NCBI RefSeq assembly: GCF_000327485.1
Contig: NC_019943.1
Location: 1 to 64,000 of the forward strand
Direction: 5' to 3'
Length of the DNA stretch: 64,000 nt
From: Methanoregula formicica SMSP
GTDB taxonomy: Archaea > Halobacteriota > Methanomicrobia > Methanomicrobiales > Methanospirillaceae
Under the pieces are notes generated by a model. That model was given only the letters and a program-made list of their open reading frames with translations, was not told the DNA's origin and did no database searches. Position numbers and translations under genes: made by a program. Positions 9,558-13,407 of this stretch are shown here, one piece after another; positions within the stretch are counted from its first letter, which is position 1, and each line of letters opens with the position of its first letter.

Positions 9558-10955
9558 TCAGTACCAGCAGAGGTCGTACGGGACAGTACCGTCAACCGAA
9601 TCTCCCGCTATCGCCACGGTCCACTTCCCCGGTTCGAGATATCCTCCGGAAATTCCGGAGATTGTCATGCGGACAGCCCGGTCCTGCCGGGAATCGTCGG
9701 CGTCGGTAAAATGCCATGTCGAACCACCCGGGCTCACCAGGGTCAGGGACAGCGAGGCACCGGGATCGTTCCACCGGAGCTCGAACGATATCTTCTTCCT
9801 GTCCAGCGAAGACTCAAGCGAATACCATTCGATCTCCCTCTTCGAGATGGTGCTGTAATAACGGACATTGGTGCCCGGTGTGGGAAAGGTTGTTGGCGTG
9901 GCAGAGTAGCCGGTTCCCTCATTCTTCCCCGAAAAATTGTTCGTGCGGTTCCCCGGATAATGGTACAGGAAGACGTCGTGCGCGTCATCGCGCCCTCCTG
10001 ACCAGACAATGAACTCCCCGGAAATTCTTGGGAATTCCATGGAGAACTGCCCCTCTGCCACGATTTTTGTCATATTCGAGGCCATGTCATAGAGCCGGAT
10101 ATCGCCGCCTCCCCGGCGGTAATTAAGAGAACCCGTTGGAGAATTCCGGTAGTCCTCCCAGACGATCAGGTCGCCCGATACATCGGGATACATCTGGAAG
10201 GAGTCCGAGGGGCTTACCGGTCCTGAAATCCCCGACTTCAGGTCATAGAGAAAGACCTGGTACGGCCCGTTGCGCCCGTCGGCCCAGACGACATGATCCC
10301 CGTCAATCGCGGACATGGCGCGGGAACACGGCCCGTCGAAAAGGACTGTCTTTTCCATGGTTGTGAGATTCAAAAGGATCATCAGGTCGTTTCCGGGCCC
10401 GGATTCACGGTAAACGACCCGGTCGCCAGAAATTGCCGGATCTCCCAGGGAACCGGCTGACGATACCACGGTCCGGTGCCCGCCCGACACCGCATCGTAC
10501 ATCACGAGGGAATATTCCTGTTTGTTGTATTCCACCCAGACGACCGTACTCCCGTCGATGCAGGGTGAGTACTGGCTTGCGGGGGAGACCAGAAACGTCA
10601 GCCTGCCCTGTGCGTTATCGTACAAAAAAATCCCCCGGCCATCGCTCCATACGTACCGGTTCCCGGAGATTGCCAGTTCGCGCTTCCACGAAGGGTCATG
10701 GATCACCAGGTCTTTTCTCCCGCCCGACACGTTATAGCGGTAGATAGCCCGTGAATAATCTCCGGAATCCGTTCCCGCTCCATACTCGACCCATGCTACA
10801 TTTCCCTCGTCGCAGGCGATTGCATTGTACTTTTCGGCATTGCTTTTTGCGATAAGGTATGACGTTTCGGGCGAATCCGCCCCGGAACCCGGGCAAATAC
10901 CAAAAAGAAGGAGAAGAACAATCCCGGTAACAAGTATTCCCCTCTTCATGGCCAT
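9558..10955 (-). CDS. Secreted TolB-like beta-propeller protein
   Basis: 465 residues. A signal peptide (about 1-26, ending PGSGA) is followed by six or seven beta-propeller blades of ~45 residues, recognised by recurring ISG(D/N)RVVW, (D/G)RNGPYQVFLYD and similar strands. The last ~110 residues form a separate beta domain (SLTLVSPGGSTWHF, GKWTVAIAG) like a proprotein-convertase P-domain. It is probably exported and stays at the surface, perhaps in protein binding. The start codon directly abuts the stop of the gene upstream (10956-12320), so they form one operon under the promoter near 12374. Confidence 0.82.
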   Translation of the reverse strand: MAMKRGILVTGIVLLLLFGICPGSGADSPETSYLIAKSNAEKYNAIACDEGNVAWVEYGAGTDSGDYSRAIYRYNVSGGRKDLVIHDPSWKRELAISGNRYVWSDGRGIFLYDNAQGRLTFLVSPASQYSPCIDGSTVVWVEYNKQEYSLVMYDAVSGGHRTVVSSAGSLGDPAISGDRVVYRESGPGNDLMILLNLTTMEKTVLFDGPCSRAMSAIDGDHVVWADGRNGPYQVFLYDLKSGISGPVSPSDSFQMYPDVSGDLIVWEDYRNSPTGSLNYRRGGGDIRLYDMASNMTKIVAEGQFSMEFPRISGEFIVWSGGRDDAHDVFLYHYPGNRTNNFSGKNEGTGYSATPTTFPTPGTNVRYYSTISKREIEWYSLESSLDRKKISFELRWNDPGASLSLTLVSPGGSTWHFTDADDSRQDRAVRMTISGISGGYLEPGKWTVAIAGDSVDGTVPYDLCWY

Positions 10956-12320
10956 TTATTTTTTCCTCAGGGTACTGACAATCACACCAAGGCAGATAAC
11001 TCCTGCCGAACACGCTATTACCGGTATCCAGGGATCTGCCGGAAGACCGTCCTTGCCGGCAGGAGTACCTGTGATAACGGTCTTTGCCTTCGGATCGACA
11101 TCGTAGGTCTTCGCGACGAGAGTCCCGTCGGATGACGCGCTCGCCTCATACAGGCTGTCGTACAGGACCATGAGCCGGGTTGCCTCAACAGAACCGTTGC
11201 GAACCTTGACGATATATTCACCGGGACTCCGCCCCGAAGTATCGATTACCGCGTGCCATGAGCCATAGCCGTTTGTCCCGTCTGCAACGGGAACCCCGGC
11301 AAGGGCAAACGCCGGCTGCTTCGGACGATCGATGTCCGCAGCGAAAACCCCGATGTCGAGGAGCGTGCCGGCATTCAGGTTCGTTGTCCCGTTAATCTCA
11401 ACAGGCGTGCCGGAGACTGCATCGGGAATTTCATTCAGATTTATCACAGGTTCTTCAAGAAGGATCATGTATTTCTGGTACGGATTCTGCTTTTCATACG
11501 TCTTCAATTTAGTTTCCAGAACATCCACTGCGAGATATGCAGACGGTTCTTTTTCATCGGGCAGGACTTTCAGGGCTTTTCCCCCTTCCACCACATAGAT
11601 AAAGTACTGGCCGGACTTCCATTCGGTTGTATTGGGGAGATCGTATACCGCAGTTCCCGATCCATCCGCTGAGATCATCTGGAACCGGGTGTACCGGGTT
11701 ACCGGTGATGCGCTGGTGATCCAGATGCCGACATGGCTGCCGGATGAGGTTGCAATGGTCATCGCCAGTGGATCTCCCTTTGCAAGGATGTTGCACCGGG
11801 TGTTGAGATCCGGTGCGGTCCTGACGATAAACGCCCCGCCGGGCGAGACATATACCGGCGATTTAAACTCTGCGCAGATGCTTCTTGCTGTCGCCACCGG
11901 CATTGGTACGGGCGTTCCTGCACCCGAAGCAAGCCGGACCTGCACGGAAACGCGATCCCCGCTCCCTTCTTTCCCGATCCTGAAAACATAGTCCGCCGGT
12001 GCATAGCCTTCCGTAAGGATCGGGACTTTCCAGATCAGACCGGCAGCTCCTTTCTCTACAGGGATTATTCCTCCTGTTCCGGAATATTCGCCATACCTGA
12101 CCGATCCGTTTCCTGTCTCTTTGCGCGAGAACTCGTACTGCAGGGTTGTCCCTTCAGGGAGGGTCGTTGTTCCGGTAAACTCGATGATCGATCCGGCCAT
12201 CAGATCCCCGGGAACCGGATCGATGGCGATCCGGTCCGTTGCAGACACCGGGCTGAGACAGAGGAGCAGTACTCCTGCAAGGAGCAGGATTTTTACCCGC
12301 AGATTTACACATTGGTTCAT
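10956..12320 (-). CDS. Cell-surface protein with a C-terminal membrane anchor
   Basis: 454 residues. A signal peptide (about 8-28) leads into tandem beta-sandwich domains typical of Methanomicrobiales surface proteins of the DUF3821 sort: AIDPVPGDLMAGSIIEFTG near the start and a second copy starting near VSGTPVEINGTTNL. The C-terminal helix (about 430-450) followed by RKK is a membrane anchor. Several N-x-S/T sequons are present. It is first in a two-gene operon with the beta-propeller protein and divergent from a membrane-bound winged-helix regulator, which likely controls it. Confidence 0.83.
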   Translation of the reverse strand: MNQCVNLRVKILLLAGVLLLCLSPVSATDRIAIDPVPGDLMAGSIIEFTGTTTLPEGTTLQYEFSRKETGNGSVRYGEYSGTGGIIPVEKGAAGLIWKVPILTEGYAPADYVFRIGKEGSGDRVSVQVRLASGAGTPVPMPVATARSICAEFKSPVYVSPGGAFIVRTAPDLNTRCNILAKGDPLAMTIATSSGSHVGIWITSASPVTRYTRFQMISADGSGTAVYDLPNTTEWKSGQYFIYVVEGGKALKVLPDEKEPSAYLAVDVLETKLKTYEKQNPYQKYMILLEEPVINLNEIPDAVSGTPVEINGTTNLNAGTLLDIGVFAADIDRPKQPAFALAGVPVADGTNGYGSWHAVIDTSGRSPGEYIVKVRNGSVEATRLMVLYDSLYEASASSDGTLVAKTYDVDPKAKTVITGTPAGKDGLPADPWIPVIACSAGVICLGVIVSTLRKK

Positions 12321-12373
12321 CTCTTCACACGTCCGTTCGGTTTTGTGGTTTTTAGATGACCGTATGGAGTGTC

Positions 12374-12381
12374 CTTATAAG
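12374..12381 (-). promoter_or_regulatory. TATA box for the surface-protein operon
   Basis: CTTATAAG, here read on the minus strand, 53 nt before the ATG at 12320 and 4 nt from the left operator arm. Transcription would start near 12350. Confidence 0.55.
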
Positions 12382-12385
12382 TGAT

Positions 12386-12446
12386 TTCTGTGAGAACGCT
12401 CACCGGATACGCAGGGACCATTGACAGGTTGAGTGTTCTCACAGAA
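12386..12446. promoter_or_regulatory. Paired inverted-repeat operator between divergent promoters
   Basis: The left arm 12386-12401 (TTCTGTGAGAACGCTC) and the right arm 12431-12446 (GAGTGTTCTCACAGAA) are reverse complements at 15 of 16 positions, 29 nt apart. Each arm contains a smaller dyad, GTGAG-N4-CTCA, as expected for a dimeric winged-helix protein. The arms lie 3-4 nt inside the two divergent TATA boxes, so one protein bound here could control both sides. The obvious candidate is the regulator starting at 12490. Confidence 0.75.
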
Positions 12447-12448
12447 CG

Positions 12449-12456
12449 TATATAAG
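12449..12456 (+). promoter_or_regulatory. TATA box for the winged-helix regulator
   Basis: TATATAAG, 2 nt beyond the right operator arm and 33 nt before ATG 12490. It excludes the upstream in-frame ATG at 12433 as a start. Confidence 0.65.
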
Positions 12457-12489
12457 ATACCGGCCCGTTCATTTTCTCAGGCATTTCCC

Positions 12490-13407
12490 ATGGATCCTAC
12501 GAAGAGGAGCGCCATCGGCCGTTTATCGCGTCTCTTTCTGGCCGCGGCCTGCCTGGTTCTTCTCATCGCTCCTGCAACAGCATATACACCGCCCTATTCC
12601 GCTCTCTCCTGGTCGGATAACCCGCCGGATGGCGAGGCAAAACTCCCGGTTCCGGTAGATGTATGGCATGTCCCCCCGGTGACGACACTCCTGGTATTCA
12701 TCGCCCTTTTCCTGCCGTTCTGCCTCGTACCTCTGGAGATCTTTCTTTCATGTGCGGGTGTTATCGTCCTGAACTTCCGGAGGGTCCGGAAAAAAGGAGT
12801 GTTCGAGAACGATTGCCGGGCGCTGGTCTATCGTCATATCGTAACGTACCCGGGTTCGGGGTTCACCGAGATCATGCGGAGCCTGCCGGTTAACCGCGGG
12901 ACACTGCACTACCACCTGAATGTCCTCTGCCGCGAGAAGCTCGTCGTTGCCTTTTCAGTGCACCGCAGGACCTGTTACTTCCAGAACGCAGGGAAATTTT
13001 CCGATCCGGAGAAGGACGCGATTGCTCGACTGAAAACCAGCGCCAGCCTCCCGATCTGCGAATTCTTATCTTCCTTCCCCGATGCATCGCGCCAAGATAT
13101 TGCACAGAGGCTGAAGACCACCGGTTCTACGGTGTCGTGGCATATGCGGAGACTCTGCGAGGCACGGCTTATCACATCGGCAAGGGAGGGAAGGACGGTC
13201 AGGTATTCGCTGACCCCCGTTGCGGTAAAGGTTATCGGCGATCTGCGGATCTACGAGAACCAACAGGCAGGGAGTGCCTGCGATGCCGGCAGGGAGCATG
13301 GCGAAAGAACGCATGCTGCGCCGTCACTATGTCCGGACAGATACCCATCAATACGGAGAGAATCTCACGGCGATCATTATGCCGGAGTCCTGGAGCCGGA
13401 GCCATGA
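12490..13407 (+). CDS. Membrane-anchored double winged-helix regulator
   Basis: 305 residues. An N-terminal hydrophobic segment (about 14-33, ending ATAYT) and a second one (about 58-90, VTTLLVFIALFLPFCLVPL) enclose a short loop that is probably outside the cell. The cytoplasmic part has two winged helix-turn-helix units: about 105-165 (FTEIMRSLPVNRGTLHYHL) and about 185-245 (DIAQRLKTTGSTVSWHMRRL). This architecture is frequent in Methanomicrobia as a membrane-tethered regulator. It is divergent from the surface-protein operon and close to the paired operator, so autoregulation and control of the surface proteins is likely (inference). The last ~45 residues are of low complexity and may not be conserved. 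Confidence 0.82.
   Translation: MDPTKRSAIGRLSRLFLAAACLVLLIAPATAYTPPYSALSWSDNPPDGEAKLPVPVDVWHVPPVTTLLVFIALFLPFCLVPLEIFLSCAGVIVLNFRRVRKKGVFENDCRALVYRHIVTYPGSGFTEIMRSLPVNRGTLHYHLNVLCREKLVVAFSVHRRTCYFQNAGKFSDPEKDAIARLKTSASLPICEFLSSFPDASRQDIAQRLKTTGSTVSWHMRRLCEARLITSAREGRTVRYSLTPVAVKVIGDLRIYENQQAGSACDAGREHGERTHAAPSLCPDRYPSIRRESHGDHYAGVLEPEP

Follow-up and report, generated by a model that had tools for sequence, protein, structure and literature searches.

Organization of the Locus

The window, by which we mean the whole stretch of DNA analyzed here, covers the initial 64 kb of a single-contig genome of 2,820,858 bp, in which the arms described below were searched for and whose nearest named relatives are Methanoregula. 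Two adjoining genes on the minus strand encode an exported 454-aa S-layer-like protein with N- and C-terminal hydrophobic segments (10956–12320) and an exported 465-aa beta-propeller protein with a C-terminal domain at residues ~365–465 (9558–10955), and a 305-aa regulator is encoded on the plus strand (12490–13407), directly to the right of the arms. The 465-aa protein matches TIGR04275 at 6.2e-43 and has orthologues in the same gene order. The match of the 454-aa protein to NCBIfam NF041431 is partial (1.6e-19, with 69.9 bits in three stretches and a cut-off of 600) and its best fold match, from a moderate-confidence model (pLDDT 66), is the S-layer protein 7ptp; it is a distant relative, not a member, of the MEMAR-type S-layer glycoproteins.

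The sequence-only reading of this DNA had described two 16-nt arms, 15/16 complementary and 29 nt apart, and exactly such an inverted repeat was found (TTCTGTGAGAACGCTC at 12386–12401 and GAGTGTTCTCACAGAA at 12431–12446). It can also be read with 17-nt arms at 12386–12402 and 12430–12446, of which 16/17 positions match with 27 nt between them; the surface-gene-side arm then reads TTCTGTGAGAACGCTCA on the plus strand, with the core TTCTGTGAGAA, and the regulator-side arm reads TTCTGTGAGAACACTCA on the minus strand. When the 170-nt intergenic region was shuffled (n = 300), the best 17-nt repeat was 13/17 or less and none of the 300 shuffles reached the observed 16/17. The left arm contains a perfect GTGAG-N4-CTCAC dyad (12390–12403) and the right arm a TTGAG-N4-CTCAC dyad matching at 4/5 positions (12429–12442), with an alternative odd dyad, GTTCT-CAC-AGAAC, also present in the right arm (12435–12447). 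Both arms had been placed 3–4 nt from a TATA box, which holds on the left, where 4 nt separate the arm from the surface-protein operon TATA box (CTTATAAG, 12374–12381, minus strand), but not on the right, where the regulator-gene TATA box (TATATAAG, 12449–12456, plus strand) is 2 nt away.

The short dyad alone is not rare, as 12 copies with one mismatch allowed occur in the window compared to 14 expected. The whole arm is found with fewer than 3 mismatches at just these two places in the 2.82 Mb genome, the next best place having 3, and since no third full copy was found in the whole genome, the switch proposed below appears to be local, with the exception of a variant box at a paralogous module. 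A structured RNA was also considered for the region and rejected, with no Rfam match within 12200–12700.

The Regulator Protein

The sequence-only reading had named a membrane-bound winged-helix protein immediately to the right, and this is what the predictions describe. Pfam matches (PF24266 and HTH_24), an AlphaFold2 model, and homologues give a layout of membrane helices at residues 7–26 and 63–104, tandem winged helices at 108–165 and 172–241, and a C-terminal helix at 243–265. In the model (pLDDT 80), an N-terminal helix leads into an outside loop of ~36 residues and a long helix region ending near RRVRKK, after which come the two winged helices and the C-terminal helix; this topology would place the DNA-binding domains inside the cell. 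By prediction from sequence and model, membrane segments and a DNA-binding domain are thus combined in one chain, as in a membrane-bound one-component regulator.

The first winged helix scores 43.2 bits against PF24266 (cut-off 31), making it a member of the HVO_0163-type HTH. The score for ArsR/SmtB (NF033788, 51.5 bits) is under the NCBIfam cut-off of 55, the second winged helix being similar in fold, and that for HTH_Crp_2 (21.2 bits) is under the cut-off of 27. The recognition helix of the first winged helix is NRGTL, and this motif accompanies the box found in the arms: the helix starts with NRG in 21/22 box-bearing regulators and with NKG in the remaining one (1/22). Among the other regulators, NRG is found in L080, L082, and L099, all of which have the divergent arrangement, and in L095.

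Conservation of the Arms and the Core Element

The regulator is also encoded, at 69–72% identity, in three further Methanoregula genomes, where the intergenic region retains the two arms and the two TATA boxes around a diverged inter-arm spacer. The left-arm N4 in the four Methanoregula genomes reads AACG, AGAT, GGAA, and AGGT between unchanged GTGAG and CTCAC flanks, and this variation of the center between fixed ends argues for a protein-binding dyad. At the level of the order, the pattern TTCTGTGAG-N30-60-CTCACAGAA occurs at six places in six of the 232 genomes searched, with 0 matches to the reversed control pattern in the same 232 genomes. Each of the six is flanked on one side by a regulator orthologue (48–73% identity, or that of the window) and on the other, divergently, by an orthologue of the 454-aa surface protein (42–73% identity outside the window); three genera are represented, with two of the places found in other genera of the family. 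Tested in related species, the arms are therefore kept, always beside the regulator and usually beside a divergent surface-protein gene.

A matrix made from the twelve arms was run on the 420 nt before 44 regulator homologues. Regulators of 31–47% identity from other families have TTCTGTG(A/C) beside a TATA box, the distance between TATA and the core (T)CTCACAGAA being nearly constant, and same-genome paralogues of 27–33% identity are without the box. The box follows the maximum-likelihood tree of the regulators, its label needing 2 changes compared to a shuffled mean of 15, a result that we take as support rather than proof because the operator label was partly assigned by reading the sequences. 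Most box-bearing regulators across the order have the 454-aa/465-aa pair, or genes related to it, in divergent orientation. In the second subclade and the f5 genomes mostly the surface-side box alone was found, G029 and one G139 locus (L073, L076) have only the regulator-side box, and the G036 and G117 homologues (L080, L082) have a degenerate box at most.

In these comparisons the deeply conserved element is TCTCACAGAA beside TATA at a near-fixed distance, which corrects the emphasis previously given to GTGAG-N4-CTCA. That dyad, claimed for each arm, is real, but its inner half is kept mainly in the genus, as well as on the regulator side of some others. Its center, TGA-N6-TCA, is present in 11/34 boxes, compared to 0–2 for other spacers, and is thus a genuine yet optional feature. 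Most of the 34 boxes retain TCT-CAC-AGA, and the most constant part is the outer half adjoining TATA. The combination TCTCACAGAA-N1-7-TATA gives 20 matches in 20 genomes. One match reads the same box a second time, three fall outside the intergenic module, two of these apparently by chance and one before a neighboring gene for a lipoprotein-like protein, and all others are at the module. Extra regulon members were rejected for two off-module matches, one inside an ABC-transporter gene and another in a repeat.

Gaps were measured between the core and the best TATA octamer: across the regulator homologues, that of the surface-side box is 4 nt in most of the first subclade and 2 nt in the second, and that of the regulator-side box is 0–2 nt. 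The AGAA end of the core is 0–4 nt from TATA and, on the regulator side, covers the BRE position, whereas on the surface side the box is 4 nt upstream of TATA and the BRE is not replaced. The outer span of the arm pair is 61, 61, 61, 62, 62, and 65 nt at six loci. Fixed helical phasing of the arms, as for looping, was rejected on this variation of 61–65 nt, and strict phasing is therefore not needed.

A Candidate Switch for Surface-Protein Genes

We put at about 0.83 the probability that the two arms form a pair of binding sites for the membrane-anchored regulator with its tandem winged helices (12490–13407). The regulator very probably owns the boxes because relatives with the same arrangement of regulator and surface genes usually carry the same boxes beside TATA. 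The earlier suggestion of a compact switch for surface-protein genes likewise gains support from the conservation of the arms, tied as it is to the regulator and the divergent surface genes, insofar as sequence comparison can speak to it. In the switch we propose, the first winged helix would read the TTCTGTG core through its NRGTL recognition helix, and the regulator would sit next to the BRE/TATA of both divergent promoters and control its own gene and the divergent operon for the S-layer-like and beta-propeller proteins as a local one-component switch. The surface operon would be activated by recruitment of TBP/TFB and the regulator gene would be autorepressed. The likely input is a signal from the cell envelope, which the regulator would sense through its short outside loop.

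Ownership of the boxes by some other trans-acting regulator, for example a Crp-like factor co-controlling both genes, is improbable. In its favor, the left arm at 12390–12403 (TGTGAG-N4-CTCAC, or TGTGA-N6-TCAC, containing GTGA-N6-TCAC) resembles the E. coli lac CRP site, and several winged-helix proteins do match HTH_Crp_2. These matches are partial, however (profile positions 18–61), and the regulator itself is among them; moreover, the genome has no other full arm, which is unlikely for a global factor, and the box tracks the clade and neighborhood of the regulator. With neither further full copies in the genome nor a full Crp match, a global Crp-like site was rejected, and the likeness to the lac CRP site is probably convergence. 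Even less credible is a reading of the conserved core as chiefly a reinforced promoter element (BRE plus TATA) and not a regulator site. The position of AGAA 0–4 nt from TATA, overlapping the BRE position on the regulator side, fits such an element, but a BRE would recur genome-wide and TCACAGAA-N0-6-TTATA was found just once in the genome, on which count a generic promoter element was rejected. In addition, conservation extends past the BRE (TCTCAC and the inner dyad), and the TATA gap is unequal on the two sides, which puts the core out of BRE register on the surface side.

The sign of regulation is a separate matter from the assignment of the operator to the membrane-anchored regulator. The archaeal activators described in PMC4158304 and PMC10665913 bind upstream of BRE/TATA, and the repressors at or below it. 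Activation of the surface operon is favored because its box is upstream of TATA with a 4-nt gap and the BRE is not replaced, and autorepression is favored because the regulator-side box overlaps the BRE position. Position is compatible with activation as well as with repression, and on the regulator side the AGAA part of the core might serve as the BRE. With the same operator and regulator, both promoters might instead be repressed by a block of TFB/TBP that an envelope signal releases, which competes only with the sign and which we would put somewhat short of an even chance. Sites touching BRE/TATA can repress, as TrmB does at malE (PMC4158304), and the ArsR family, which the second winged helix resembles, contains many repressors. 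On the other hand, the surface-side box is upstream of TATA, a position from which TrmBL1, Tgr, Ptr2, TFB-RF1, and EarA activate (PMC4158304, PMC10665913). Between surface-gene activation with autorepression and repression of both promoters, we regard the odds as about even.

A feedback loop, in which the outside loop of the regulator senses the C-terminal domain of the secreted beta-propeller protein so that the cell reads its coat and adjusts its coat genes, is a speculative idea that we think rather unlikely to be correct. A homologue of that domain is also encoded directly before many paralogous membrane regulators.

Comparison With Known Archaeal Regulators

The closest functional likeness is to ArnR and ArnR1, the membrane-bound one-component archaellum activators of Sulfolobus acidocaldarius, which are also archaeal HTH proteins in the membrane and which also have two inverted-repeat boxes in the promoter of surface-structure genes (PMC6396743). 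In ArnR a single HTH is N-terminal, a HAMP-like and a sensor domain are present, and the two TM helices are C-terminal (PMC6396743), whereas the regulator here has N-terminal membrane segments and two winged helices, with no HAMP seen. The ArnR boxes are TCGAC-N5-GTCGA and those here TTCTGTGAGAACRCTCA, and each of the two divergent promoters here is served by one box. The regulator would work like ArnR but, since domain order and box differ, belongs to another family.

EarA of Methanococcus and Pyrococcus, another winged-helix protein of Euryarchaeota, likewise regulates surface genes and has a short motif upstream of the BRE; this motif, TACATA, is 9–11 bp from the BRE and repeated on one side, and membrane segments like those of the regulator here are not reported for it in the portion of the source used (PMC10665913). 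The TrmB family (TrmB, TrmBL1, Tgr) shares the archaeal winged helix and palindromic sites close to BRE/TATA, with a link between site position and sign, but has different motifs and characterized members that respond to sugars (PMC4158304); no TrmB model is among the Pfam or NCBIfam matches of the regulator. The first winged helix is a significant match to the PF24266 proteins (HVO_0163 N-terminal HTH). A literature search found no study of HVO_0163 function or operator, the sole paper naming it being an acetylome, and no paper on the regulator, the box, or Methanomicrobiales operators.

DNA sites are known for few of the membrane-bound transcription regulators of archaea. In this case comparative genomics by itself ties a family of membrane winged-helix proteins, a motif in their recognition helix, and an operator to genes for S-layer-like and beta-propeller proteins across an order of methanogens. 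Control of the archaeal cell surface becomes testable with one 90-bp probe, and the unequal box–TATA distances would make activation and autorepression by one protein comparable.

Paralogous Modules

At 363–364 kb in the genome of the window, a paralogous regulator with the NRGTL helix (L099) is divergent from a gene for a 427-aa beta-propeller protein. The exact sequence TTCTGTGACAGAA occurs once in the genome, between these two genes (G000:C1:364041-364053), and the locus is probably a second module with a compact box. In G029, an TCTCACAGAA-TATA box (L113, G029:C1:1173310-1173330) stands before a 392-aa lipoprotein-like gene that lies upstream of the regulator, and this gene may be an extra target.

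Other paralogous membrane winged-helix regulators (L088, L090–L092, L094–L096, L106, L107, and L110) lie directly 3' of a gene for a small exported protein related to residues 365–465, the C-terminal 100, of the 465-aa beta-propeller protein of the window. No shared box was found at these downstream-placed regulators, and as many box-less regulators follow the gene for that domain, it is the regulator family as a whole that goes with the domain. Two of these pairs of regulator and small exported-protein gene, L091 and L092 (G000, near 1.16 Mb and 0.10 Mb), are near-identical and represent a recent duplication in the same genome.
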